IMG/VR virus record: IMGVR_UViG_3300030090_005285
Location: 6,523 to 35,856 of that record
DNA: 29,334 nucleotides
Strand: one strand, 5' to 3'
DNA from: a virus
This document shows positions 3,658 through 24,700 of the stretch, one piece after another. Below the pieces are notes generated by a model. The model did not search any database. It had not been told where the DNA came from and was given only the letters and a program-made list of their open reading frames with translations. How positions within the stretch are numbered: position 1 is the stretch's first letter; every line of letters starts with the position of its first letter. The translations under genes and the position numbers were made by a program.

Positions 3658-6600
3658 ATGCCAGAGTTAAAAAATAATTTTACCGGCGGTAAGATGAACA
3701 AAGACCTTGATGAAAGGTTGGTTCCAAACGGTCAATACAGAGATGCTTGGAACGTGCAGGTTTCTACTTCGGACGAATCTGATATAGGTTCTTTACAAAA
3801 TTTATTAGGTAATACTCAAATATTAAGCAACACAATACCTGGTGATGCTGTTTGCGTTGGTAGTATTACAGATGATAAAAATAATACTTTATACTTATTA
3901 TTAGCTTCTGATCAAAAAGATATGATTTTTAGTTACAACAATGTAACTGAAACAGCAACACTTGTTTTTGTTGATATTAATTTAGGTGTTTTACAATATA
4001 ATAAGACAAGATTAATAACTGGTATTAATATTGTAGATGATATGTTGTTTTGGACTGATAATTTTACAGAACCAAAAAGAATAAACATACCAAGATCTAT
4101 AGAAGGAACTGATCAAGGTGGTGTTACAAACACTAGGTTAATAGTTCCAGAAAGAAGTATTGATTTTAACTCTGAGATAAATATTGCAGAAGAAAATATA
4201 ACAGTAATAAAAAAAGGACCTAAAGTACCACCTGTGCTAAGATTAGAAAGTAGTGGTTCTACTTCTATAAAGCTTCACTGTGGACAACCACATCCTTATA
4301 CTTTTCAAGCATTTGGAGCTGGTGATGACGTAACAATAAATGTTAAAAATTTAATAGGTAAATTTTATGGTAACGTACTACATGACTATTATAAGCCAGG
4401 TGATACTTTATATTTAAAAGCTGTAGAAAAAGAACCTTTAGGATCTGATCATGATTTAGAAGATAAGTGGAGCAAAGGTATTAAGTTTGATCATGATATA
4501 GAGCTTCTAATTAAAAAAGATGGCATAGGTGATACTAGTAATACAGATCCTTATAGTACTCCAATTGTTTGTGAAGTAATTGCTAAAAAAGGTAATTTAT
4601 ATAGTGATATATATACTGTTACAAATTTAGCAGATCCAGATTTAATATTTGAAAAAAAGTTTCCACGTTTTGCAACTAGATGGAAATATTCTGACGGTGA
4701 ATACTCACCTTTTTCTCCATTTTCCCAAATAGCTTTCTCGCCAGGTAGTTTTAGTTATCACCCTACAAAAGGTTTTAACTTAGGTATGGTCAATACTTTA
4801 TATGCTGCTCATATAGAACAGTTTATAGTTCAAGATATACCAGACGATGTTGTTTCTGTTGATATATTATATAGAGAAGCAGGTTCGCCTGTTATATATG
4901 TTGTTGATACAATATCAAAAAATGATCCTTTTATACCTGGTCAAGCTTATAATTATTGGAACTCTAGATACGAATACAATACTTTTACTACAACTTCTCA
5001 AGTTCGCGAAGATGGAGGTTTTAAGGGTACATATAAAATAACTAGCGATACTATATCTAAAGCAATACCAGAAAGCCAAACACAAAGACATTGGGATAAC
5101 GTACCAAGAGCAGCGCTTAGTCAAGAAATAGTTGCTAATAGACTAGTGTATGGTAATTATTTGCAAAACTATGATTTGTATTCTGGCTCTGATAGTAGTG
5201 TACCTTATAAAGGTAGCTTTGAAGTAAACATAGAAGATTACGAAAAACAAGACTTTCAATTACCAAGAGGAAATTATTTTGATTCTTTACCTTCAATAAA
5301 ATCTCTTAGAACTTATCAAGTTGGTATTGTATACGAAGATGATTATGGTAGACAAACACCGGTGTTAACAGGTGAAAGCGGTGTAATAAAAACTAGTAAA
5401 GATATTGCTAAAAAACAACATAGATTAACAGTTAGACCTCTTAATGACGCGCCTGATTGGGCTACAAGTTTTAAATACTTTATAAAAGAAACTTCTAGCG
5501 AATATTATAACTTAGCTATGGATAGAGTTTTTGATGGTGAAGATGGTAACGTTTGGCTGTCTTTTCCTTCGTCAGATAGAGCTAAAGTTGATGAAGAAAC
5601 CTATTTAATACTTAAAAAAGATGCTCATGGTGCTTTTGTAAAAGAAAAAGCTAGATACAAAATATTATCTATTAAAAACGAAGCTCCTGATTTTATAAAA
5701 CAACAAGCTTCAGCTCTTGATACAGTAGCTTACGATGATGTATCTGGTAATTTATTTAGTCAAACTGGTTTGTTTAATGTTGGCTCTACTGTTCCTGTAA
5801 AAGATTCTAAAATATTTGAAATAACTGGAGATAGACATAACGAGTTAACAGAATTAATAGCTATATTTAAACAAAAAAGAGCAGAAAAAGATCTTGCTAC
5901 TAGCGATCCTTTAACTATTGGTCAAGAAGAAGTTCAAATTAGTTTAAGAATAATAAATGAAAGTGAAACTCAATATAATGGAAGATCACAGTGGTATAGA
6001 ATAGATAAAATATTTAACAGTAGCGACTCTTTAGGTTTTGAATTTACAATGGAAAAGCCTTTTGAAGAAGATATAGAGTTTTCTTATGTATTAGATGGTG
6101 GTGTTGTTGCTGAAACTTTTGATGAAACAAAAATAGTATTTAGAAAAGAAAAAGAAGAACACAAGTCTTGGTTTGATGGTAGATTTTTTGTTAAAATAGA
6201 AAGAGATGCTATTGTAGATAACAAAGTTATTACTACACCTGAAACTAACTGGATTAAAGTAGCTCAAAACCGTTTGTATTATTTACACTCTGGAGAAGGT
6301 AAGCAGTTAGAAAGAATAAAAACATCTAACTTAGGCATCTCAACTAGATATGCTGGAAAAAATCATAGTGATCCTGAAAATGATTTTAACGGAAATTATG
6401 AGCTTTATGGTAGTGTAGATTCTGTTCCAGGAAGTAGAATAAAAGACTCAAACGGCGACCCTTATGATCCAGTAAACAATGTTGGTAATAAATTAGAAGC
6501 TTTAATACCACAATGTGGTAATGCAGATGCAAAGGTTAGAACAGGTCTTACTGATAGAGAGTTTTATACACCTAGTGATAACGCAAATAGGGTAATGGGT

Positions 6601-9600
6601 ATACTAAAGCATTATATTGGTACTCATGAGTATGATAATGGTAATTACACACCTATATCATCTAATTATCCTGAAGTTCAAGATGGGTTTTGGTATATAG
6701 ATAGAACTTATTATTATTTTAATAATACAACAAGTTCTTTTGCTCCGTTTGGTTTCTACTTCGGTCAGTACGAAGGTCACGTCGGTGGTGGTGTACAAAT
6801 TCCATATAAAGCTGGTAGTAATTACCAGTTTAATAGAAGAAAAGGTATGCGTCTTAATGAAGACCCAACACCAAGAAAAATAAGTATCGCTTTCACGCAA
6901 GTTATAGACGCAGATGGTTATAACGGAGCAATACCTTCGGCAAGTGAATTTAATCTTGATAATTATTCAGAGCAAAAAGATTTTATTGATAGATTAAAAG
7001 TAGGTACTAAAGTTAAATTTTCTGATGATCAAACAGGAGATGACGGTGGTCCTCAAATACGTACTATAACAAAAGTTGAAGGACCGTTTTCTATAGTAGG
7101 TCATGCAAAAGATATAATTGGAAATTCACAAGCTACACCTAATGATCCTTATGCGCTTCGAGTAGGTTGGAATATAACCTTTGATAAGCATTTTGGTAAT
7201 CCAGTTTATAATACTCGTGGTTATAATCCTTTATACACTTTAAAAGATGTTCAAATAGAAAGAGATGATGGTACTGTAGAAACTTGTCCTAGTGAAGAGT
7301 GTACAGGTGGAGCTGCATATCCTTGGGCTACTGAGTCTGATACCGCATCGGCACACTCAACAGAAAAAGATCATGTTTTTGGTCCTGGAGGACCTACTAC
7401 AATGGAAATTTATGAAGATGAATATTCAATAGGTGATAGTGAAAAAATAATAGCTGATAGTCCTGTTATATGGGAAACAGAACCTAAACAAGATACTGAT
7501 ATAGATCTTTATTACGAAGCTAGTGGTTCATATCCCGTAAGTATAATTAACTCAACAGCTCAACCAATAAGAACCGGTGCTATTGTTAGAGTATCAAAAT
7601 CAAATCCTGATTATTATAGCAATGTAGAAGATGCTAGTGGAGATACTTGGCTTGCTAGAAATAACTTAAACACAGAGTTTGAAGAAGACGCTATAGTACA
7701 AAGTATAGATTTTAATTTAGATATTAACCTAGGTAATACTGCTAACGTTGATAACGAAATAAGATTAGAAGAAGGTACTATATTAGACGTAATTTTTAAA
7801 GGCACTAAAATAGAAGTAGTTGTTGTAGAGGATGTAGATGATAACACTTATACTAATACTAATCCTAATTCAATTAGAATAGAAGGCGATTTTCATAGTA
7901 ATTTAGTTTCTTTAAATTGGTTTAACTGCTACGTTTTTGGTGATAATATAGGCGTTGAATCTGACAGAATACGTGATGATTTTAATGCTGTAACAATAGA
8001 TAATGGACCCAAAGTATCTACAACTGTAATTGAAGGTAGATATAAAGAAGAAAGAAGAAAAAATGGTTTAATATTTTCAGGTATATATAACTCAATGTCT
8101 GGTATAAATAACTTAAACCAATTTATATTAGGCGAAGGCAACATTAAAGAATTAAATCCTAGTTATGGTAGTATACAAAAACTACATACTAGAGACACTG
8201 ATTTAATAACTCTTTGTGAAAATAAAGTTTTAAAAGTTTTAGCAAGTAAAGATGCTTTGTTTAATGCTGATGGTAATTTAAATTTAACGTCATCTACAAA
8301 CGTATTAGGACAAGCGATCCCTTTTGTTGGTGAATACGGTATATCTAAAAATCCAGAATCATTTGCTAGTGATTCTTATAGAGCGTATTTTACAGACGCT
8401 AAAAAAGGTGCTGTATTAAGATTATCAAGAGATGGTTTATCTCCAATACACGAGTTTGGTATGCGTAATTGGTTTGCTGATTATTTTATACAAAATGAAA
8501 AAATAATGTTGCAAGAAGGTCTTAGTAAAAATTATGTTATCGGTAGTTATGATACTAAGAAAAAACATTATAATGTTACTTTTTCTGATTTAACAGTTTC
8601 TTTTAGTGAAGACGCTAAAGGTTGGGTAAGTTTTAAATCTATGGCTTCAAGAATTAAACAGTATGATGAATCTATATTACATACTAGCCAAAACTATCCT
8701 ATTGATTTTGCTGGTATTAGTTTAAATAATATGTATTATACTTTTAGAGAAGGTAAATTTTGGTTAAGCCACAATAATCAAACTTATAATAATTTTTATA
8801 ATTATCAACTTGCTTCTTCTGTTAATGTTGTTTTAAACGATACGCCTGAAGTTGTAAAATCTTTTAATACCTTAAATTACGAAGGTAGTAATTCTAGAAT
8901 AGAAGAAATAACAACTGCGGTTGTTAATGGTAATACATATAACGATAATGAATACTATAATCTTGTTGCAAGAGATGGTTGGTTTGTAAATTCCATAGTT
9001 ACCGATAAAGGAAAATCTACAGAACAACACGGTATGGTTAATGAGTTTATAGAAAAAGAAGGTAAATGGTTTAACTATATTAAAGGTGATACAACTAATA
9101 TAAATAATATAGATCCATCAGAAATGAGTTTACAAGGTATTGGTTTGCCAAATGCAATATCAATACCAACTACAGTTTATGGTTGTACAGATCCAAACGC
9201 AATTAACTACAATCAAAACGCTAATGTAGATGATGGTTCGTGTGTTCTTTGTGTTTATGGATGTACTGATCCATCTTCTAATACTTATAGTTTAAACGCT
9301 ACTTGTGACGATGGTTCATGTGAATTTCATGGTTGTACAAACGCAGGTGCTTTTAATTATAATCCAAACGCTACTCATGATCCTAACAACGCGTGTTTAC
9401 CTTATGTTTATGGTTGTCAAGATCCGCTTGCTACAAACCATAATAATAACGCTAATGCTTGGTGTAATAGTAATCCTAATCAATTTAACGCTAGTAACAA
9501 TTGGACCGTAGAAGCTTTTGACGGTGGTACCTTGGCTGGTGATTCTCAGTTTAATTGTTGTCAATATCCTCTACCTGGTTGTGTTGATGAAGCTGCTGGT

Positions 9601-12087
9601 AATTACGATCCAAACGCTGACACAGATGATGGTAGTTGTGACTATAGTATGGTGGGTTGTAGCGATCCAGGTGCTAATAACTATAGCAACGCGTTTACAG
9701 GTTGTGACGTTAATGGTGTTTACACGGCTGGTGATACAAGTTGTTGTACTTATACTGTAATCTATGGTTGTACTGACAGCTCGGCAATTAATAATACTTA
9801 TAATCCAAACGCAACAACACCGTGTGGTTCTTCAAGTGATCCTAGCGGTCAAAGTAATTGTATAAACGGACAAACCGGTGACAATTGTTGTTGTGAATAT
9901 CAAGCGTTGCCAGTTTATGGTTGTTTAGATTCAACAGCTGCTAATTATAATGCAAACGCAGATACAGATGATGGTTCATGTTGTTATGGAGGTTGTAGTC
10001 AAGGTGATAATTATTTAGGTACGCAACCTGATATATACGGCTTTTGTAATAATTCAGCTTGTACAGGACCTCCTTATTATACAGGTTGTACAAATCCTGG
10101 TGTTTGTGATCCAAGTAATGGTATTTATACTGGGTGTGATAAGTGTACAGGTCAAGTTTATTGTGGTGCTGGTAGTAGTGGTGATTGTGGTTATTTACAT
10201 ATAAATTACGATCCTGAATTATGTTATGATTGTGCTCAAGCTAATCCAGGTGTTACGCCTTCACCTTGCTATGATAGTTTAAATGTGCTTGGAGGTGGTG
10301 ATGTTAGTACTTGTATTGAAACTGTGTTTGGCTGTATGGATGATACGGCTGACAACTATAATCCAGCAGCAACTGCTGATGATGGTAATTGCCAATACAC
10401 TACTTATTGTTGTACAGATACAAACCCTGGTTATTGTAATTATGGAGCGCCAGGAGCTGTAACGCCTGGTAATCCAAGCGGTAGTACTAGCAATTGTCAA
10501 AACGGACTTCCTTCTATGTGTGAAAACACTAGTTGTATTGGTTGTATTGATCCTGCTCTTGGTTTTCATGCCGGTGAAATGGAAGACCCAAACAACCCAG
10601 GTACTATGATAAAAGTTTGTAGAGGCACAACTTATTCTAGCGGACCACAAACAGCAAATTTATGGCAATATACAGATCCAGGAACACTAACAACTTATGA
10701 TGTTTGTTCTAAAGATGGTAGCACGCTAGATCCATTAGATGCCAATGGAAATGACAATAGAGATGGTTGGAATGCTACAAATTATGATCCAACAGCTGAT
10801 CTTGTTTCTTATTGGAATATGTCAGCTCATAATACAAACAATTTACCAACAACAGGTCCATATCCTAATTGTAATTATATTGGTGGTGGTTGTACAGATA
10901 ATGGTAACATGCCTAATAATTACGTAGCTAGTCAAGCTGCTGTAAACTCAGGTTATGGTGGAAATGGTAATGGGTATGTAGGTGGTTCTTTAACACCTGG
11001 TCAACCAGCATTTAATTATAATCCACTTGCTAGCTCAGATGATGGTAGTTGTTACCCTGTAATATTTGGTTGTCAAGATCCAAGTGCAGCAAACACAGAT
11101 GCTGCTTGTAATAGCGGTTCCTTGAACTTTGGTTGGGGTGTACCTGGCGCTGTAGGTGATGGTACTCCTTGGACAGATGTTAATACTGGTAATCAAAATT
11201 GTTGTGTTAGTACTATTAGTGGATGTACAGATGATATTGCACATCGATATATACATACAATTCTTAGTGTTACAACAAGCAACGTTTCGAATACTTCGGA
11301 TGGTTTTGGTTATGCTTTAAATTATCATAAAGGCGTCAACAAAGGATATGTAGTAGATATTGCTAACAAACAAGTTGGTGCTGGTGCTTTTAATTATGAT
11401 CCAAATGCAAATACTTTACAACTTGGTGTTTGGCAAGCAGATGTACCTGTTATTGGTTATGATGCTAGTAATATAGTAAACAGTATTGGTGTTTATTCTC
11501 AATTAGATGCTACTTGTGCAGGTGATCCAACTCTTTGTGTTGGTAACGGTAACGAAACCGCTTGTTGTTATCAAGCTGGATGTCTTGATCCAAACGCTTT
11601 TAACTTTGAATATAACGGTTTTGGATTAGATGATACTCCAAATTGGTATAGTAACACGCAAGAGGAAGGAAGAGCAAGATGGTATGGTGCTAATAACCAA
11701 AGAGTTAATTATTTTGTTGAGGGAGAGATAAACCCACAGACTTGTGTTGATTGTAGTAATAGCTATCTTCACACTGGACAACCAAAACAATCAGATAATG
11801 TTTTTCATAGAACTTGTGCTGATTGCGCTGGTAATAAAGCAGAGCTTTTCTTTGTAGATCCCGTCACAGGTCAATCAACAATGGGTACTCCAACACCTGG
11901 CGCTTATCTTTCTGTAGCTAGAGTTTTAGGACAAGTTGGTACTGGTGCTGATTTAAGTTGTTGTTGTTATCACAAAGGATGTGCAGATCCAAATGCAGAT
12001 AATTATTATCTTGATCCTAATGGTGGAGCTTATAATCCTTTAGTTTGTCAAGGTGATAGTACTATGTGTACTTACAATACAAAATAA
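3658..12087 (+). CDS. Giant tail protein: tail-tubular-B/stabilization-like core plus Cys-rich repeat adhesin
   Basis: The 2809-residue product is a probable tail nozzle or hub protein fused to an adhesin. Its N terminus (MPELKNNFTGGKMNKDLDER, then LVPNGQYRDAWNVQVSTSD) and the phrase WTDNFTEPKRINI starting at W132 are hallmarks of a family annotated as stabilization or tail-tubular-protein-B-like in marine and crAss-like phages. A second conserved core lies at about residues 1513-1615, containing LCENKVLKVLASKDALFNAD, QAIPFVGEYGISKNPESF and GMRNWFADYF. From residue 1842 to the end the protein changes to about 17 Cys-rich GCTDP-type repeats. T7 gp12 has about 800 residues, so this protein is greatly enlarged. 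It should sit at the tail tip facing outward, with the repeats contacting the host. No signal peptide or catalytic site is seen. The start is four bases after the preceding stop. Confidence 0.8.
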   Translation: MPELKNNFTGGKMNKDLDERLVPNGQYRDAWNVQVSTSDESDIGSLQNLLGNTQILSNTIPGDAVCVGSITDDKNNTLYLLLASDQKDMIFSYNNVTETATLVFVDINLGVLQYNKTRLITGINIVDDMLFWTDNFTEPKRINIPRSIEGTDQGGVTNTRLIVPERSIDFNSEINIAEENITVIKKGPKVPPVLRLESSGSTSIKLHCGQPHPYTFQAFGAGDDVTINVKNLIGKFYGNVLHDYYKPGDTLYLKAVEKEPLGSDHDLEDKWSKGIKFDHDIELLIKKDGIGDTSNTDPYSTPIVCEVIAKKGNLYSDIYTVTNLADPDLIFEKKFPRFATRWKYSDGEYSPFSPFSQIAFSPGSFSYHPTKGFNLGMVNTLYAAHIEQFIVQDIPDDVVSVDILYREAGSPVIYVVDTISKNDPFIPGQAYNYWNSRYEYNTFTTTSQVREDGGFKGTYKITSDTISKAIPESQTQRHWDNVPRAALSQEIVANRLVYGNYLQNYDLYSGSDSSVPYKGSFEVNIEDYEKQDFQLPRGNYFDSLPSIKSLRTYQVGIVYEDDYGRQTPVLTGESGVIKTSKDIAKKQHRLTVRPLNDAPDWATSFKYFIKETSSEYYNLAMDRVFDGEDGNVWLSFPSSDRAKVDEETYLILKKDAHGAFVKEKARYKILSIKNEAPDFIKQQASALDTVAYDDVSGNLFSQTGLFNVGSTVPVKDSKIFEITGDRHNELTELIAIFKQKRAEKDLATSDPLTIGQEEVQISLRIINESETQYNGRSQWYRIDKIFNSSDSLGFEFTMEKPFEEDIEFSYVLDGGVVAETFDETKIVFRKEKEEHKSWFDGRFFVKIERDAIVDNKVITTPETNWIKVAQNRLYYLHSGEGKQLERIKTSNLGISTRYAGKNHSDPENDFNGNYELYGSVDSVPGSRIKDSNGDPYDPVNNVGNKLEALIPQCGNADAKVRTGLTDREFYTPSDNANRVMGILKHYIGTHEYDNGNYTPISSNYPEVQDGFWYIDRTYYYFNNTTSSFAPFGFYFGQYEGHVGGGVQIPYKAGSNYQFNRRKGMRLNEDPTPRKISIAFTQVIDADGYNGAIPSASEFNLDNYSEQKDFIDRLKVGTKVKFSDDQTGDDGGPQIRTITKVEGPFSIVGHAKDIIGNSQATPNDPYALRVGWNITFDKHFGNPVYNTRGYNPLYTLKDVQIERDDGTVETCPSEECTGGAAYPWATESDTASAHSTEKDHVFGPGGPTTMEIYEDEYSIGDSEKIIADSPVIWETEPKQDTDIDLYYEASGSYPVSIINSTAQPIRTGAIVRVSKSNPDYYSNVEDASGDTWLARNNLNTEFEEDAIVQSIDFNLDINLGNTANVDNEIRLEEGTILDVIFKGTKIEVVVVEDVDDNTYTNTNPNSIRIEGDFHSNLVSLNWFNCYVFGDNIGVESDRIRDDFNAVTIDNGPKVSTTVIEGRYKEERRKNGLIFSGIYNSMSGINNLNQFILGEGNIKELNPSYGSIQKLHTRDTDLITLCENKVLKVLASKDALFNADGNLNLTSSTNVLGQAIPFVGEYGISKNPESFASDSYRAYFTDAKKGAVLRLSRDGLSPIHEFGMRNWFADYFIQNEKIMLQEGLSKNYVIGSYDTKKKHYNVTFSDLTVSFSEDAKGWVSFKSMASRIKQYDESILHTSQNYPIDFAGISLNNMYYTFREGKFWLSHNNQTYNNFYNYQLASSVNVVLNDTPEVVKSFNTLNYEGSNSRIEEITTAVVNGNTYNDNEYYNLVARDGWFVNSIVTDKGKSTEQHGMVNEFIEKEGKWFNYIKGDTTNINNIDPSEMSLQGIGLPNAISIPTTVYGCTDPNAINYNQNANVDDGSCVLCVYGCTDPSSNTYSLNATCDDGSCEFHGCTNAGAFNYNPNATHDPNNACLPYVYGCQDPLATNHNNNANAWCNSNPNQFNASNNWTVEAFDGGTLAGDSQFNCCQYPLPGCVDEAAGNYDPNADTDDGSCDYSMVGCSDPGANNYSNAFTGCDVNGVYTAGDTSCCTYTVIYGCTDSSAINNTYNPNATTPCGSSSDPSGQSNCINGQTGDNCCCEYQALPVYGCLDSTAANYNANADTDDGSCCYGGCSQGDNYLGTQPDIYGFCNNSACTGPPYYTGCTNPGVCDPSNGIYTGCDKCTGQVYCGAGSSGDCGYLHINYDPELCYDCAQANPGVTPSPCYDSLNVLGGGDVSTCIETVFGCMDDTADNYNPAATADDGNCQYTTYCCTDTNPGYCNYGAPGAVTPGNPSGSTSNCQNGLPSMCENTSCIGCIDPALGFHAGEMEDPNNPGTMIKVCRGTTYSSGPQTANLWQYTDPGTLTTYDVCSKDGSTLDPLDANGNDNRDGWNATNYDPTADLVSYWNMSAHNTNNLPTTGPYPNCNYIGGGCTDNGNMPNNYVASQAAVNSGYGGNGNGYVGGSLTPGQPAFNYNPLASSDDGSCYPVIFGCQDPSAANTDAACNSGSLNFGWGVPGAVGDGTPWTDVNTGNQNCCVSTISGCTDDIAHRYIHTILSVTTSNVSNTSDGFGYALNYHKGVNKGYVVDIANKQVGAGAFNYDPNANTLQLGVWQADVPVIGYDASNIVNSIGVYSQLDATCAGDPTLCVGNGNETACCYQAGCLDPNAFNFEYNGFGLDDTPNWYSNTQEEGRARWYGANNQRVNYFVEGEINPQTCVDCSNSYLHTGQPKQSDNVFHRTCADCAGNKAELFFVDPVTGQSTMGTPTPGAYLSVARVLGQVGTGADLSCCCYHKGCADPNADNYYLDPNGGAYNPLVCQGDSTMCTYNTK
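9181..12084 (+). repeat. Array of about 17 Cys-rich GCTDPxAxNYxPxAxxDDGSC repeats
   Basis: These bases encode residues 1842-2809 of the giant tail protein. Each unit opens with GC(T/Q/V/S/L/M/I/A)D or a variant, continues with a xNYxPNA-like segment and usually ends near DDGSC or a CC/CCC cluster. Clear copies begin GCTDPNAINYNQNANVDDGSC-like at 9181 and GCTDPSSNTY at 9259. Unit length varies from about 24 to over 100 residues because many units carry long, different insertions between the conserved opening and the closing cysteines. By eye there are about 70 cysteines, against a handful in the preceding 1841 residues. The Asp/Asn-rich NADTDDG segment resembles calcium-binding loops. This repeat type is common in Bacteroidota extracellular proteins. 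Divergence between units argues against recent DNA-level amplification. Confidence 0.9.
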
Positions 12088-12104: not shown

Positions 12105-15100
12105 ATGTCATATAATATAGGTGATCCAGGTCCTGCTGGTGGTTTCATATTTGCAACACCGCAAACGCCTGGTAATAATACTAGTTTTTATTTTGAGGCA
12201 GGGCCTCACGATCTTGCTGTTTCGCAAATGCCACCTGGCAGTTATGGTTATGTTTGCTCTACTGGTAATACGTGGCAGCCGTTGCCAGATCCAACAAATA
12301 TTGGTCCTGGTTTACCTCAAATTAGTGGAGCCGCTGAGTTTGGTTGGATGAAAGCTGTTATACCTACGATTGTATCTATACCTTCTGTTCAAACAGCAAC
12401 TGGTCCTGACGTTGGTGATGGTAAAAATAATACTGTAAATTTATTAAATCCTCCGCCAAACGTACAGGCTATTTTTTATCAATCAGCTGCTGAGTTATGT
12501 GACAATTATTCTACTGTAGGCGTTGATCCAGTTAGTGGTGATGGTCCTATAGATTATACAGACTGGTTTTTACCTTCTGATAGAGAAGCTACATTAATGA
12601 TTAATAATATTGGTCCTAATACGCAATATAATCAAGCTGTAAAAATTTTAGGACCAGGTATTATTTCTAATGGTATTACATATCCACACACTAATAAGTA
12701 TTGGACATCAACAGCCGATCATACAGGTGGATCTATTAAAGCTAGGATAGTAGATTCGTTAACGGGTATAACTACAAATGCTACAAGATGTCACGTTTAT
12801 AGCGTTAGACCAGTTAGAATGTTTGCTCTTCAAGAAGTAGATAGAGAATATCGTTGTCCTGGTGCTACAGGTGGTACACAATGTATAAGCGTTCCTACTG
12901 GTACAACACAACCGCCGTTAGTTGCTTTCGCAACATTACAAGACTGTAATACAGCTTTACAAAATGGTGATTGTGGTGGTGGGCCAAATCCTTGTATACC
13001 AGGCGAAATGGACTGTTATAACTATAGAGATGGCGTTGGTGGTGTTAATATGAGATGGACGCCAAGACTAACACCTATATACACGCCTGGTTTAAGTGGT
13101 TCTGGTTCACATACTCTTGATAACTATACTGACAATATTGGTAATAATTACACCATTAAAACTACTTGGGTTGATACAAGTGGCGTTACACAAACGCAAC
13201 CTCTAACAGCTAGACAATGGATTCAAAAATTTTGGAATATGCCGCCTAGTGCAACAAGTATATTAGATAGATGTTCTTTGTGGGATTCTGTTATTGGGTT
13301 GCCATGGTTTAACTTAAACTTTTCACAAATTGATGCTATGGGTAACGACATAGATTTTAATGCTTTTAAACAAGCAGATGGAAGTGGTTATTTAATAAAA
13401 ATATGGGACAAAAAGAAAAGACTATTAGGTTCTTGGTTATATGATAATTGTCAAGTAATGCATCCAACCGTTAAATACCATAGATCTGACGTACCTGGTT
13501 CTCCACTTAGAAACGAAATAGACTTGCAAGGTAATAGTTTTCCAGAGCTAAGTAAATCTACAAAACTTAGAGTCTATTTTACTTGTAACGACGGTAAAAT
13601 GCCTAAAATGATAGATGGTCATCATATTTATGGTAAAAAATATAGAGTAATTCAATATGGATTTAACACAAGATCAAGTGGTTTTGGTTTTGGACCTGAT
13701 GTTAATTACGGAAAACTAAACGACCCTAATTTTAATCTTAATACAACTGCTACTATATCTAATGGTCTTGCAATTTGTACTCCGGGAAGTCCAATAACTT
13801 TAAATGCAACTGGATTATTAAACAGCGCCGCATTGAATATGACTGGAGCTTTTTTTAATAATACAACTCCTAGTGGAGCTTTAGCAATACCAAGTTTTGG
13901 TTATCACAACGATGATTATAGTACTACATACTTCAATAACCCAAATTACCGTACAGCTTCTTATGCATATTTACTAATAAAATGTGATTATTTTGATAAT
14001 TCACCTTACGGTTATGCGCACATGAACGGTCCTAATACAGATGAGTTTAACATGAATATGATTTGTGATGAAACTCACGGTGCTTGGTGTGGTCAAAAAC
14101 TTTACACTATACCAGCGCCTAGCTATAACGGTCATGATGGGGTTTGTGGAAAAATTAAACCTTTGTCTCAAGCTGGTATTAACGCAACTTCTTTACCTTA
14201 TATAACAAGTGGAAATTATAAAGACGTTAGAGTAAACTGTAGAAACCATGGAATAGCAGGTGGAGGTAAAAGTCCTTATCAAATAAACTTACCAAAACCT
14301 ATTACTGGCAATGTATTACATCCAACCGGTTGTATACCAGGTGATCCAACAAATCCTTGTCTTTATCTTTCTGCTAGTACTATTAATTTACATCCTTGGT
14401 TTGCACAATTTAAACCAGGTGACGGTAGTGTGCCTGGTGGTAATTCAACATGGACAAATATTACGTGGTATAATAGTTTAAATGACTTTATTTACGATCA
14501 TCAAGCCTCACCAACAAGAGAGCCAAATATGTTATGTAAACATGATTTTTGGGCTGGTACTAATGCTACTGGTGGTGGTACAGAATCAGAGCCAGGTGGT
14601 AGAGGTGAAAGCGGTGAATATGTAATAACTGAGTTTAATATAAACGAAGAGCATATATCTGAGAATGGCGGCGTTAAACAATTAAGTATTGTTGGTGATC
14701 CTTTTGCTACTTTTTCATTAACTATTACTACAGACGATGCTACAGTTAAGTATTATAATTTTTCATCTAATAAATTTAGCACAACATATAATAAACTTTC
14801 TTTTGAAAAATTAAATAGTAGTGGTATATATCAACAAGCTATAACGTTTCCAACATCAACTAGTAATGTTGTTTATAGCGTAAGATTACAAGCAGAACCT
14901 CATTTTGATACAGAACTACAATTAAGTGGTGTTTTATCTAAAATAAGTCAAACAAAGAAAATATATCAATACGCTAAAAAGAAAATTACTTTTACTAGTT
15001 CTTCTGAAACAAGCGCTTCTGTTCTTACTTTCCCAACAAACGTAGAAGTAGATGTATCTCCTTCTCTTGTTACTATAGACGATGTTTTAACTAGTAGTGT

Positions 15101-16046: not shown

Positions 16047-16400
16047 ATGATAGAATTAGATTTTATAGGACAATTAAATACTTCGATGCAAGTTGGTGAT
16101 ATAGTTTATTATCTACCTGTAACAACAACCGCTAGCTTTAACATAAGTAATACTAGTTCTGCTGTAGAGTTAGGGCCAATTACAGAAATACTTGTAAGTA
16201 ATTTTAATAATTTTACAATAAGAGTAGACTCTTCAGCTGCACAACCACCTAACAACAGTTTTTTTATGTTTTCTAAAGACAACACGGTAAATTTAGCTAG
16301 TGTATTAGGTTATCATGCAGAAGTACAATTTGTAAATAATTCAAATAAAAAAGCTGAAATGTTTAGCGTAGGCTCGATTACACAGCTAAATAGTAAATAA
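16047..16400 (+). CDS. Small tail-associated protein of unknown function
   Basis: The 117-residue protein starts MIELDFIGQLNTSMQVGDIV. It has a beta-rich composition with VGDIVYYLPVTTTASF, LGPITEILV and a C-terminal segment LGYHAEVQFVNNSNKKAEMF before FSVGSITQ. I recall similar small proteins beside fiber genes of marine phages; no function is established that I know of. The ATG follows the fiber stop codon with no intervening base and in the same frame, so translation probably depends on termination-reinitiation. A beta-barrel or tail-tip accessory or fiber chaperone role is possible but unsupported. No signal peptide or membrane helix is seen. Confidence 0.75.
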   Translation: MIELDFIGQLNTSMQVGDIVYYLPVTTTASFNISNTSSAVELGPITEILVSNFNNFTIRVDSSAAQPPNNSFFMFSKDNTVNLASVLGYHAEVQFVNNSNKKAEMFSVGSITQLNSK

Positions 16401-18725: not shown

Positions 18726-21700
18726 ATGTTTGAATTAAATGGTAAACCAATATCTATAGATTATTTAAAGCAAAAAGCTGAAGAGTTTGGTATGAGTTAC
18801 GAAGACTTTTTAAATGACTCTTTGTCTACTGGTAATCTCGTGCAAAAAGGAGGCGACAAGACTATGGCTGGCGTTGGCGTTTTAAGAAAAGAATTTTTAC
18901 CTGGACAAACACAACAAACAACTTTTGATCCAAGCTCTGTGTTAACAACAGGTTTAGAAGCAGATGATGAAGTTGAAGAAGAAACATTTAGCTTGTCTGA
19001 TTTAAGAAAAAATATTGTTTCACGTCAAGACGGTAATATATCTTCTATTAATGAAGTAAAAATACTTAAAGGTAGGGTAGAAGAAGACAAACAAAAAAGA
19101 TTTTTAGATTTTAGGTTAAAATACAAAACAGATAATCCTGATGAAGTAGTATCAAATTTTTATGGCAAAGATGTTTTTAGCGAACCTGTTGATCCTGGAA
19201 GAACTGGAGGTAAAGTATATTTTTTACCTGACGAAGAAATTGGAGGTGGTAAAAAACTTGAAGGATTTTTGTTAGAAGACTATGATTTTAGAAATACAAA
19301 TACTTTGGAAGGTGCTAGAAATTTTTATTTAAATCAAAAATCAAACGAAATATCTATTGATTTTGAAAAAAAGTATGGTGAAAACGTATATAATACTATA
19401 ACTACTCAAGGTGAAAATTATATATCTTTAGAAGATATGGATATAGTTAATTTAAGAAAAGAAGGTAAAAAAGACGAGGCAGATAAATTAGCAAAAGATA
19501 GAGGTTATGTTCCTTTGTTAGACGAAAACAATAATATAACAAACTGGGTTCCAAAAGCAATTGAAGACGATGCTCAAAACAGAGCTGAATCAACAGACAG
19601 AGATGTTCTTGAAGATCAACTTAAACAATCTTTTTACAAACTACTAGCGGCTAGAGATCTTGCTTATGAAAACTCTGTAGAAGATACACCTTTAACAAGA
19701 CATACTCTTGCAGACGTTTCTTTTGGTAAATCTTTAGTTCATAAAATAAGAGATGCGTTTGGAGATGATAAAAGCTTAGATGATGTAATGGCTAAAATAG
19801 AACAGTCTTATAAAGGCGATTTAATAGCTGGATTAAATAAAATACCTTCTAAAACCGCTACAGCTAAAGCTTTTAACAATGCTTTAGATGAGTTTGTAGT
19901 ACTTAATAGAGCTTTAGCAATTAATGCAGATTTAACTAAAATAGACGAACAAAACTTTGTTAGAGAAATATTTGACGCAACAAATGATAGAGTTGCTGAA
20001 ACCTTGACTAGTTTGCTTGAAGCTAACGGTTATGAATCTGATCCAAACTCTATTAAAAGAGCTGGTAGCGATTGGAATAAAGCTCTTGGTATAAAAGCAG
20101 ACTGGCAATTAAGAGATGTGCTAGAAGGCGGTAGAGATGTAGCCGCTCATTTAGTTCCTTTGGCAGCTTCTGTTTATCTTACTAAAAAACTTCCCGTTAA
20201 TCTTGGCGTAACAAAACTAGGACAAAAAACAGCAAAAGTTAAAAGTTTAAATCAATTTATTAACGGACAAGCTAACGTTATTGGTAGATATGTTAAAAAG
20301 CACGGTCCTCAGTCTAGAGCTTTTAGAAGCGCGGTTGATTTAACAATGGGTGGTATTAAAGAAACATTAATATTAGGTATGGCAGATGTGCCAGCAAACA
20401 GGTTGTTTGGTGCTGATCCTTTTGTATATAATGAAAAAACAGGTGAGTTTACACCTACATTTCCATTTGCTTTAGGTTTTGGTAACGCAGCGGCTGCAAA
20501 AATACTTAAAAGGCTAAATACTACTGATAACTTTTTTACTCCTGCTTTAGCTACTATAGAAAGATCAAAAACAGCTCAATCTATACTACAAATGAATATA
20601 GGTGCCACGGTAGGTACAGCTACAATGTTTTTTGCAGAAGAAGTAACTAAAGGTGTAGATAACTGGAAAAATTTAGGTTATGAATCTGAAGAAGACATGA
20701 AGCAAGATCATGGATTTAAAAACCTTGTAGAGACTTATATTGGCATGTTAATGTTTCAAAGCGTGTCTCCATCTATGAAGCAAAATTCTTTAGCTAAGCT
20801 AGCAAGCGGTATGCGTAGTGATATATTAAAATATACAACTGGTTTAACTCCTAGATCTAGAAAAGCTATGAAGCTATTTGGCATAGAAACAAATGAAAAA
20901 GGAGAGTTTAACTTACAAGAAGTAAAAAATAAAAAATCTCAAAAACAATATGAAATAAGTAGAGATAAAAAATTAGATAAAAAAACAAAAAGAGAAAAAA
21001 TTCAAGAAATAGAAAACGCAGCGGAAGAATTAATATTTCATAATGAATTAAAGTTAGCAAAAGAATTAGCTAAAAAAGAAGGTAAATATAGAGAGTACTT
21101 AAACAAAACTTTTGTTTTAGCCAATAAGTTAAAAACAGGTGATAAACCTACGTCAGAAGATATACAAAGATTTGCAGAATTAAGCCCTGTTGAACTTAAG
21201 TTTTTAAAATTAAAATTTGGTGTAACTGAAAATTCTGATTTTGGTAGGATGCTAGATAACAAGTATGAAGTTTATAAAGATATAATTTCGCGTGTTGATC
21301 AAGCTTATATTACTAAAGATAGGCCTGGTATAATACAAGGTAGAATGTTTGAGGGTATATCTCCAGAAGCTAGAAACAAACAAATACAATTATTATTAGA
21401 GCAAGCTGAGTTTGCCGGCGAAATAACAAGATTAAAAGTAGAAGCTGAAAAAAAACCTCATTTAAAAGAAATAAATGCCGAAAAAATAAAAAATATAAAA
21501 GAAAAACAAAAGATTAACGCACAAGATGTTATTAAAAACGAACAACTTTACGATAAAATTTTAAAAGAAAAATTTGAAACTGAAGTTCAATTTTCAAAGC
21601 TGATGACTAAAGAGTTAGGTGCTGGTTTTAATTTAGTTGGGGAAAATGCGTTTGTAGCAATGGGTGGAACAAAAGGATCTGAAGGTTTTTTTAATAGAAA

Positions 21701-24700
21701 AACAAATCAAGTATATATAAACAGAGATAGAGCTTTAGAAGTTAGACAACTTGGAACGCCGCTACACGAGGTTACACACGCTATATTAAGAAACTCATTA
21801 AAAGAGTCTTATATAGATGATCAAGGTGTAGAAAGAACAAGAGTTTCTAAAGAGGGTATGACAAAGATAAATCAGTTTTTAAATCAACTTACATCGAAAG
21901 AAAGAGCTGCTGTTGAAAAAAGAATGGATCAAGAATACAAGTATGAAAGAAACTCTAAAGGTGATTTTATTTTAAAAAATGGTAAAAAAATATTAAGACC
22001 TGAAAATCAGTATGCTGAAGAATACTTAACTGCGTTTGGCGATGTACTTAAGAATAAAGAAGTTATAGAAACACCTGATTTAGCTAGTAGAATAAGTAAT
22101 TTTTTCACACCTATAATGCGACAAGCTGGGTTTAAAAATATGCAAGTAACTGCTGAAAACGGTAGGGGTTTATATAATATGATTAAGGCTATTCAAAAAA
22201 GCAGTGAAACTGGTATTATAGATAAAGATGTTTTAAATATAGCTAAAACTAGCAAAGTAATTACTGGTAAAGCTTTAGCAGAGTCTAGAACTATAACAGA
22301 AGGAATGAAAGAAGCTTCTACTGATATAGATAGAATATATAAAGAAAAAGGTTTAGAAGGTTATAATGAAATAATAGATAGAATAAAAGGTAAAAAAGCA
22401 GACGGTACTAAAGGTAAAGATTTTATAAAACAATATACAGAGATATATAGAGATCATGCTGGTTATGAAAGCAAAAAAGACATATTGTATGATGCTATGG
22501 CTAGCGATCCAACTTATGGTGTATTGGGTAGTATCATGTCGTATAATCCAGCTAAAAATCCTTCTATAGCATCTCATATACTTGGTAGACTTAAACAAGG
22601 TAAGCACATAGATGTTGCTAATATAGTTTTAGGTAAAGATGCTCAAAGACAATTTACTAAAAACTTAGACGCTGCAGAGATTAAAGAAGTTGAAGCAAAA
22701 CAATTAACAGCTGAAGAGTTAACAGACATATCTCTAGCTAAAGAAAAAATACAACAAGCACCTAATTTTAGAAAATCTTTAGTAAAAGGTGAAGAAAAAG
22801 GTATTAACCAAGAGTTAATAGATAAAGTTGAAGCAACTGTAGTTAAAACATTTGGAACTAAAATACCTAAGCCAGAAGCAAAAGGATTTAGAAAATCTAT
22901 AGAAAATAGTTATAAAACAGAACTTAAAAAACCTATAGCTGATTTAATGGGTAAAGGTCCTGAGTACGAAGTATTTTTAAGAGAAAACTTCGATGCTATA
23001 ATGAAGCATGTTGATAAATCTTTCTTTGTACAAATGGAAAGATTAACACCTAGGAAAGATAGAATATTTACAGAAGTTGAGATTGAAAGAATGAATCCAA
23101 CGCAAACCGACAAGGCTATTGCTGACGGTAGAGTACCTAAAAATACTTCTAGAACAGCTGGTAATACTTTGTATAGATTTAAAAAACCTGCTCCAGCTCA
23201 ATTTTTAAAGTTTTATACTGGAGCTGGTTTAGGATCAACTAAAGGTACTCGTAAAGATAGATTAGCTGAAGTTATAGGTATAGAACTAGCAAAAGATTTT
23301 ACGTCAGAAATTTTATCTAGACCAGAAGTTGCGGCTAAAATAAAAGAAATTTCATTATTAGAACTAGAAAAATCAATAGAAGGTACTGGTAAAACATCTC
23401 CAAAAATAGCAGAAGCTAAAAAAATTATATTTGACAACTACACGGAAAGAGTTGCTGCTCAAATAGGTAGAGATCCTAATTTAGCTTTTAGCTATACAAA
23501 AGAACAATTTAAACAAGAAGTTAAAGAACTAAACGATTTTTTCAATAAAACTGAATTATCTTTTGGAGAAATATATGATGTTAAAACTCAAAAGCCTTTA
23601 GTAAAAAGATCAGACGGTAAAGAGTTTAACGAGCTAGCATATAATCATGTTTTAGAAGGTTATAAGAATAATTTATTAGATATTAATGTTACAAGGTATC
23701 AAAACAAAATATTAGAGGCAACTGGTAAAAAAATTAAAAAAGGAACAGCTTACGAATATTATACAGAAAACAACATAAATAAACAAATAAAAGGAAACAA
23801 AAATGTAAAAGTTACTAGTGAAGTCAGTGAAAAAACTATACAACTACCACCTCAAGGAATTTTTAAAGGAGGAAAAGTTCCAATGCCAGACTTCATGTTA
23901 GAAATGTATAACAATACATTGTCTTGGGAGTTAAAATATAAAGATGCTAGAACACCTAAAAACAGCGCTGGATTTATTGATTACACACAAGCTTATAAAG
24001 ATATTATAGCTGGAAAAGAATTTAAATTAACAGACAGAAAAAGTCCTAGAAAAAACGCTACAGAAGAAGCTATTTTTGTTGAGTCTGTTAAAGAAGCTAT
24101 ATTAAATGGCGTGCCTAAGGTTGAAAAAGTACTTAGAGATCGTGGTGTTTTAAAAGAAGGTGAAAACTTTACTTCAACAACAAAAGTGCCTAAAGAAGTA
24201 TATGCTTTACTACGTGGAAATGAAAACGCTAAAATGTCTAGTTCAAAACAAACTGTTAACGGTGACTGGGTTGCTGCAGATTATAATAAAAAAGGTGTGT
24301 TTAATTTTCAAATGGCTACTAAAGGTGCTTTCTTTTTAGGGTCAGATCCATTAGGTATAGTTAAAGAATTAGGTGGTACTAAATTAGAAGGTAATTTTCC
24401 GTTAATGACTAGAGTTTATGGTACTAGTTATAAAAACAAAGCAGGTGAAACTATGGGTTATACTTACAAACTTGTAGGAGAAGCTATAATAAGTCCAAAA
24501 AATATTACTTCTGAATCTAATTTTAATCTTGATTCACCAAACTCTGTTAAGCAAATGATTAATACTAAGTCAGCAAAACGTCTTAAATCTATAGCTGAGT
24601 CTGAAGCTTCTGCTTTTAAACAAAATTTTTTAAAATTTCAAGCTCAAAAACAAAAAGGTAGAGAATTTGTAAAGTCAATACTAGAATCAAAAACAAACAC

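Follow-up and report, generated by a model that had tools for sequence, protein, structure and literature searches.

The Locus and Its Genomic Context

The stretch of DNA analysed here (the window) is 29,334 nucleotides long and forms part of a 35.9 kb record of an uncultured virus (IMG/VR record IMGVR_UViG_3300030090_005285; G000:C1:6523-35856). Its central feature is a 2809-aa open reading frame (ORF), followed by two further ORFs of 1313 and 117 aa (Table 1). Terminase (TerL), portal, and capsid (head) genes, which match PHROGs of the type seen in relatives, are located 5' of the large ORF, in the order known from the cultured Cellulophaga phage phi38:1, and the gene order is shared with phi38:1 and the elemo Flavobacterium phages. 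The hosts of the nearest cultured relatives are Flavobacterium, Cellulophaga, Maribacter, and Tenacibaculum, and a marine member of the Flavobacteriia is therefore the likely host of this phage. These relatives (Pervagoviridae, Elemovirus) are classed in the Caudoviricetes without the order Crassvirales; the virus is a marine crAss-like phage, probably of the Flavobacteriales, and is related to the gut crAss viruses. Downstream of the region discussed below, at 18726-27335, the window encodes a 2869-aa ORF that contains no cysteine at all and has no PHROG match, and that corresponds by position to gp101 of phi38:1, a large virion/cargo protein.

Table 1. Positions of the features discussed in the text; entries without a locus label refer to the window.
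Feature	Position	Strand	Basis or remark
Muzzle ORF, 2809 aa	3658..12087	+	open throughout
Muzzle core, residues 1-1836	3658..9165	+	crAss-like tail-tip nozzle, beta-propeller type; PHROG_14478, tblastn, profile, fold of L086 segment
Fast-evolving core stretch, residues 801-1000	6058..6657	+	dN/dS 0.61 (against L011), 0.53 (against L012); whole core 0.24
crAss_MUZ_C domain, residues 1709-1810	8782..9087	+	Pfam PF25729, E=1.3e-6, 29.2 bits, cut-off 27
GCTDP array, residues 1839-2809	9172..12084	+	about 16 Cys-rich units, 74 Cys; in frame with core
Second cargo ORF, 1313 aa	12105..16046	+	variable N-part with Lcl_C-like domain; conserved C-part common to cargo ORFs of relatives
Lcl_C-like domain, residues 125-238 of the 1313-aa ORF	12477..12818	+	PF07603, E=4e-4 to 1e-3, below gathering score
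Muzzle C-terminal domain, separate 117-aa ORF	16047..16400	+	profile of 61 split ORFs
Secreted GCTDP ORFs of phages	L271:4289-6163	-
	L188:7735-9837; L192:5305-7380; L173:6850-10272; L193:6988-10101; L196:7657-9792
Copies of the ~350-aa ORF	L188:5498-6541; L192:2224-3324; L182:9887-10963; L193:10101-11222; L173:10277-11341; L247:11962-12996

The Muzzle Core

The 2809-aa ORF encodes the muzzle, the tail-tip nozzle protein of crAss-like phages, with a core that extends to about residue 1836. This assignment follows from its match to PHROG_14478 (E=1.6e-135), from the Pfam crAss_MUZ_C domain, from a profile of residues 1621-1841 and their relatives that matches gp44 of Bacteroides phage phicrAss001 (HMM E=1.2e-12; 95% with hhalign), and from a structural comparison. 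For the latter, we used an AlphaFold2 model of the homologous segment of locus L086, which is weak (mean pLDDT 58, good over about 110 residues only). The top PDB matches of this model are nevertheless the crAss001 muzzle entries 7qok and 7qol (7qok_A, E=2.6e-5), and it aligns with residues 1038-1339 of the crAss001 muzzle with a VIA Z of 11.9. A tblastn search with the core matches elemo, Callevirus, and Maribacter phages, and gp97 of phi38:1 (Callevirus) and its elemo counterparts, from phages of marine Flavobacteriia, share about 31% identity with it. The core ends in a conserved motif (KEGKWFNYIKG...SLQGIG) that also ends the core across relatives. An earlier interpretation made from the letters of the window alone (the sequence-only reading) had recognized a tail nozzle protein correctly and had placed the end of the conserved core near residue 1615, which is too early: the crAss_MUZ_C domain lies beyond that point, and the alignments with relatives extend to residues 1829-1841. 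Within the core, residues 801-1000 evolve fast and are probably exposed loops of the crass domain.

A Cysteine-Rich Array in Frame with the Core

The core is continued by an array of about 970 residues that is rich in cysteine: of the 82 cysteines in the ORF, 74 lie from residue 1843 onwards and 8 before it. The array contains 15 unit starts of the form GC[x][D/N][x], whereas 2000 shuffled versions of its residues have 0.23 on average and never more than 3. The complete motif in its strict form occurs five times in the array and in none of the 2000 shuffles. A relaxed count gives 16 units, approximately five of them canonical (GCTDPxAxNYxPxAxxDDGSC) and the others degenerate or long-looped. 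The tandem 21-residue core that marks the Bacteroidota-type repeat, GC[T/M]DPxAxNYxPxAxxDDGSC, is present. None of the curated Pfam or NCBIfam models matched the array, and we found no relevant paper on the GCTDP or DDGSC motif in the open-access literature.

The same in-frame fusion is present on contigs from two other metagenomes, L010 and L012 (3300018420) and L011 (3300030012), at 86-90% identity. In the two to three closest relatives, all from other metagenomes, 74 of the 74 array cysteines are invariant, compared with 680 of all 979 sites (~69%; p=5e-13), and because of this the fusion can be neither an assembly join nor the product of chance. An assembly join or frameshift near base 9170, which the sequence-only reading had named as a possible flaw, is further ruled out by these contigs and by clean codon use. 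Its main claim, that Cys-rich GCTDP repeats are fused to a tail nozzle protein, is thus borne out. The invariance of the cysteines is a strong sign of a disulfide or metal-binding constraint on the array.

The first three units of the array are predicted at pLDDT 84-90. When the canonical unit is compared with solved structures, its sequence matches chiefly the truncated EGF-like module of the animal protein MPEG-1 (E=3e-4), which has been described (PMC6989145), and the predicted fold of the unit also has its best PDB match in MPEG-1, over 24 residues with 62% identity and an rmsd of 0.5; the fold search returned just three matches, none with a significant E-value. MPEG-1 is a pore-forming protein with a single copy of the module, and a likeness over 24 residues is not proof of common ancestry. 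It should be mentioned that residues 331-354 of PDB entry 6u2j, the EGF-like hinge module of this protein (perforin-2), are strikingly similar to the GCTDP unit of bacteria and phages.

A Muzzle Gene Split before Its Last Domain

The sequence-only reading needs a second correction: the nozzle to which the repeats are appended is not complete, since the last muzzle domain is encoded downstream as a separate ORF. The 117-aa product of this ORF is homologous to the final ~110 residues of intact muzzle proteins, which accounts for the matches of PHROG_18548 to the muzzle ORF as well as to this one. A profile of this C-terminal domain (C-domain), built solely from 61 separate ORFs and searched against 2322 ORFs, matches the extreme C-termini of five fused muzzle ORFs: L080 (E=1.4e-27), L086 (3.6e-22), the C-part of the muzzle of Maribacter phage Panino (1.3e-15), elemoF (2.2e-11), and phi38:1 (2.8e-6). 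It also matches other small ORFs and a 267-aa ORF in L009, near the muzzle of phage ctfjg026.

In cultured phages of Cellulophaga and Flavobacterium, the C-domain forms one chain with the core; in the window and some 60 marine relatives, it has a gene of its own. Where the two are fused (five cases), at most 42 residues lie between the end of the core and the C-domain, whereas 60 split loci have 638-7154 nt between them (median 2.5 kb; a few rows are duplicate contigs), and the window has 6.9 kb. The crAss001 muzzle gp44 is likewise one chain of 1371 aa, and gp97 of phi38:1 and the elemo muzzles are intact proteins of 1324-1493 aa; none of them carries GCTDP units. A single polypeptide that includes the C-terminal domain is the state of the cultured relatives, although no strict requirement of the family, and we file the window muzzle as a variant because this domain has its own ORF there. 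On a tree of 74 cores (a quick LG+G4 tree with SH-aLRT support only, midpoint-rooted), two fused muzzles are nested among the split ones, as would be expected if they had shed the cargo and the two parts had fused again. Elsewhere, the core itself is broken into two or three ORFs (L087:9001-18108, L220:1840-11931, L007:8998-12911), and thus the muzzle gene seems to be generally tolerant of breaks.

The muzzle itself is a known protein; for the split, the cargo site, and the GCTDP arrays, we found no report in the open-access literature. The only length variation that the crAss001 structure paper mentions is due to insertions in the crass and IG2 domains (PMC10172136). The split and the variable cargo site had also been missed by the sequence-only reading.

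Contents and Evolution of the Cargo Site

The cargo between the two muzzle halves varies from about 0.6 to 7.2 kb and consists of GCTDP arrays, which are extensions of the core ORF, of long Cys-poor tails, of separate ORFs, or of mixtures of these. In the GCTDP-bearing loci, the arrays lie 3' of the end of the core and have from 1 to 16 units, and the distribution of arrays on the tree of 74 cores requires no fewer than six gains or losses. Because relatives bear different pieces at the split point, the break in the muzzle gene looks like the site of an exchangeable cell-binding head.

The second cargo protein in the window, of 1313 aa, is probably a fibre or adhesin. Its first ~840 residues have an amino-acid identity of 0.70 to L011 and its last ~470 residues one of 0.95; this conserved C-part is found in about 20 relatives, in cargo ORFs that may precede or follow the gene for the C-domain. 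The Lcl_C-like domain in its N-part matches, with a blastp E-value of 1.5e-4, the domain that directly follows the array in the muzzle of L215, and the order of GCTDP array and Lcl-like domain is common to this muzzle and the host protein L170.

Relative to L011, the array has an amino-acid identity of 0.77, compared with 0.91 for the core and 0.97 for both the C-domain and the next gene. The dN/dS of the array is 0.36 versus 0.24 for the core, and thus its selection is relaxed yet purifying; positive selection is not demonstrable. Fast evolution is not confined to the cargo in every comparison, because L012 also diverges in the C-domain (0.71) and in the next gene (0.69). In the fast regions dS is raised too, which suggests that mosaic recombination has probably contributed.

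GCTDP Units in Bacteria and Other Phages

Scanning 84,980 species genomes for the GCTDP pattern yielded at least 543 confirmed stretches of 599 candidates among the matches listed. Nearly all of the best 80 come from Flavobacteriales or further members of the Bacteroidota, the exceptions being two from Chloroflexi and one from Marinimicrobia, and two small Flavobacteriales genomes have 39 and 126 matches. The secreted GCTDP proteins of marine Flavobacteriales (L117, L125, L170) share with the muzzle array the unit of 21-26 aa and the residue profile. Many of these host proteins have a signal peptide-like start and several have T9SS-like tails, whereas the window muzzle has neither: in a crude test, a signal peptide-like N-terminus was found in just one of 97 muzzle rows, and Pfam found no Por_Secre_tail or CHU_C domain in the window protein, which thus does not have the features of a T9SS-secreted surface protein. 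Pfam matches of host arrays to NleE and anthrax PA-type families failed a single-stretch test and were dismissed as artefacts of the repeats.

Among cultured phages, tblastn with the whole array found nothing at 1e-5, and tblastn with canonical units matched cyanophages. These are T4-like Synechococcus phages (S-CAM3, S-CAM4, ACG-2014j) whose tail-fibre gene cluster encodes proteins annotated as virion structural that contain one or two units, and the carrier protein is unrelated to the muzzle; the units of S-CAM3 and S-CAM4 lie at L274:5572-7119 and L276:2596-4080. The view that the modules are known mainly from secreted Bacteroidota proteins holds insofar as they are very common in Flavobacteriales and not restricted to phages, but the occurrence in cultured cyanophages shows that the module extends beyond Bacteroidota and the phages that infect them.

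The sequence-only reading had also proposed that the phage captured the module from its host. Since near-identical units of 21 residues carry too little signal for a tree of single units, we compared residue profiles instead. The Jensen-Shannon-type distance (JSD) of the muzzle units, 1.01, falls just inside the upper limit of the values for host subsamples (0.69-1.03), and that of the units in phage-encoded secreted proteins is 1.54. The window array scores 274 bits against a host protein, 236 against phage secreted proteins, and 199 against other phage muzzles, although regular arrays converge and the host-host background is high, which limits the weight of the 274-bit match. A host-type origin of the array is thus likely. 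Recent capture finds no such support: GC3 is 0.150 versus 0.138, so that the GC3 of the array is that of the phage, and the higher GC of the array stems from codon positions 1 and 2 only. Nor do we claim a lineage-specific capture from any one host; the L215 array is 63% identical to host L125 over 345 aa, but host arrays have a median identity of 50% to one another, and often more.

Possible Functions of the Array

Host recognition by crAss-like phages is poorly known, with the muzzle presumed to make contact with the cell surface and set off ejection. In crAss001, the muzzle is a tail-tip hexamer with a gated channel, and contact of its distal part with the cell is believed to open the gate (PMC10172136). 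We consider it reasonably probable that the window encodes a split muzzle with an exchangeable, disulfide-braced arm that has a putative role in receptor binding. The split just before the last domain would tolerate the insertion of cell-binding cargo that can be exchanged. In the window, this cargo would comprise the ~970-residue array continuous with the core and the second, adhesin-like protein of 1313 aa, and the 117-aa protein would re-associate with the core. Disulfides would pin each GCTDP unit into a small module resembling the truncated EGF-like repeat of MPEG-1, and would make the array a stiff, protease-resistant arm, present in six copies if the muzzle is hexameric as in crAss001. 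Cargo near the muzzle C-terminus would place large arms around the tip, and the variable loops between the cysteines may contact structures of the host surface before the muzzle gate opens. The sequence-only reading had likewise suggested an adhesin, which is plausible, and had considered disulfides in a virion protein mechanistically odd. This worry falls, because cryo-EM has shown that the tail barrel, the fibre hubs, and the portal vertex of crAss001 contain disulfides (PMC10172136); those of the array may form after lysis or by oxidative maturation, as for the tail disulfides of crAss001.

Receptor binding by the array appears to be the most likely function, and its chief rival is a structural one. 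The array could be a spacer or armour, that is, a rigid disulfide-rich stalk that displays other binders (e.g., the 1313-aa protein) or shields the tip in seawater. The cysteines are all invariant while the loops vary, the similar module of MPEG-1 is a hinge between domains, the units of the cyanophage proteins lie between other domains, and the L215 array sits before an Lcl-like domain, all of which would suit a spacer. On the contrary, the variation in unit number from 1 to 16, the degenerate units, the long unique loops, and the fast evolution fit a contact surface better, and we regard a purely structural role as unlikely. Distinctly more improbable is mimicry, in which a captured host surface module binds the partners of host GCTDP proteins or like units, or shields the tip from surface defences. 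The abundance of GCTDP units in hosts, the host-like profile of the muzzle units, and the secreted GCTDP protein encoded by relatives with GCTDP muzzles are consistent with it, but Synechococcus cyanophages carry units too, so that host-specific mimicry is not required, and GC3 gives no sign of recent capture.

A different objection concerns the 117-aa protein, which might be a free-standing chaperone or an unrelated small virion protein that shares the domain, the muzzle working without it. The C-domain profile has no detectable match in crAss001 gp44, on which the weak L086 model also leaves the C-domain unplaced. However, this domain is fused to the core in the five phages described above, two of them nested among the split ones, and we consider a free-standing role highly improbable.

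If the exchangeable receptor-binding arm is correct, the point at which the muzzle gene is naturally interrupted, and at which phages differ in their surface-type modules, would mark where crAss-like phages swap binding parts. The group concerned is a large set of uncultured marine phages, with at least 593 muzzle relatives in IMG/VR. The GCTDP module, very common yet unnamed, would gain a testable function, and the 117-aa protein with the core would make a small two-piece protein for structural work.

Phage-Encoded Secreted GCTDP Proteins

Most GCTDP matches in viral contigs belong to another gene, which encodes a protein of ~600-1300 aa with a signal peptide-like start and GCTDP units (Table 1), and in some cases a T9SS type A or B sorting domain (PF18962, CHU_C). 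From these domains, the phages seem to encode substrates of the host type IX secretion system. The closest large relative of the window (L271) has one of these genes on its contig, near a gene that by eye is likely to encode a peptidase/endolysin. The secreted GCTDP gene is present on five of seven contigs with a GCTDP muzzle versus one of nine without (Fisher p=0.035, for incomplete muzzle contigs of at least 39 kb and uncorrected for relatedness), a co-occurrence that is a lead, not a result. It is conceivable, if rather unlikely, that one lineage uses the host-like GCTDP module twice, in two-piece muzzle cargo and in a secreted protein with a host-type C-terminus, and that the two interact like to like; if so, progeny virions might be tethered to infected cells, or superinfection might be blocked. 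On various viral contigs, the secreted GCTDP gene has a conserved ORF of ~350 aa beside it or close by. One copy (P0003), which has no match in PHROG or Pfam, has a signal peptide- or lipoprotein-like start and by eye resembles an outer-membrane protein.
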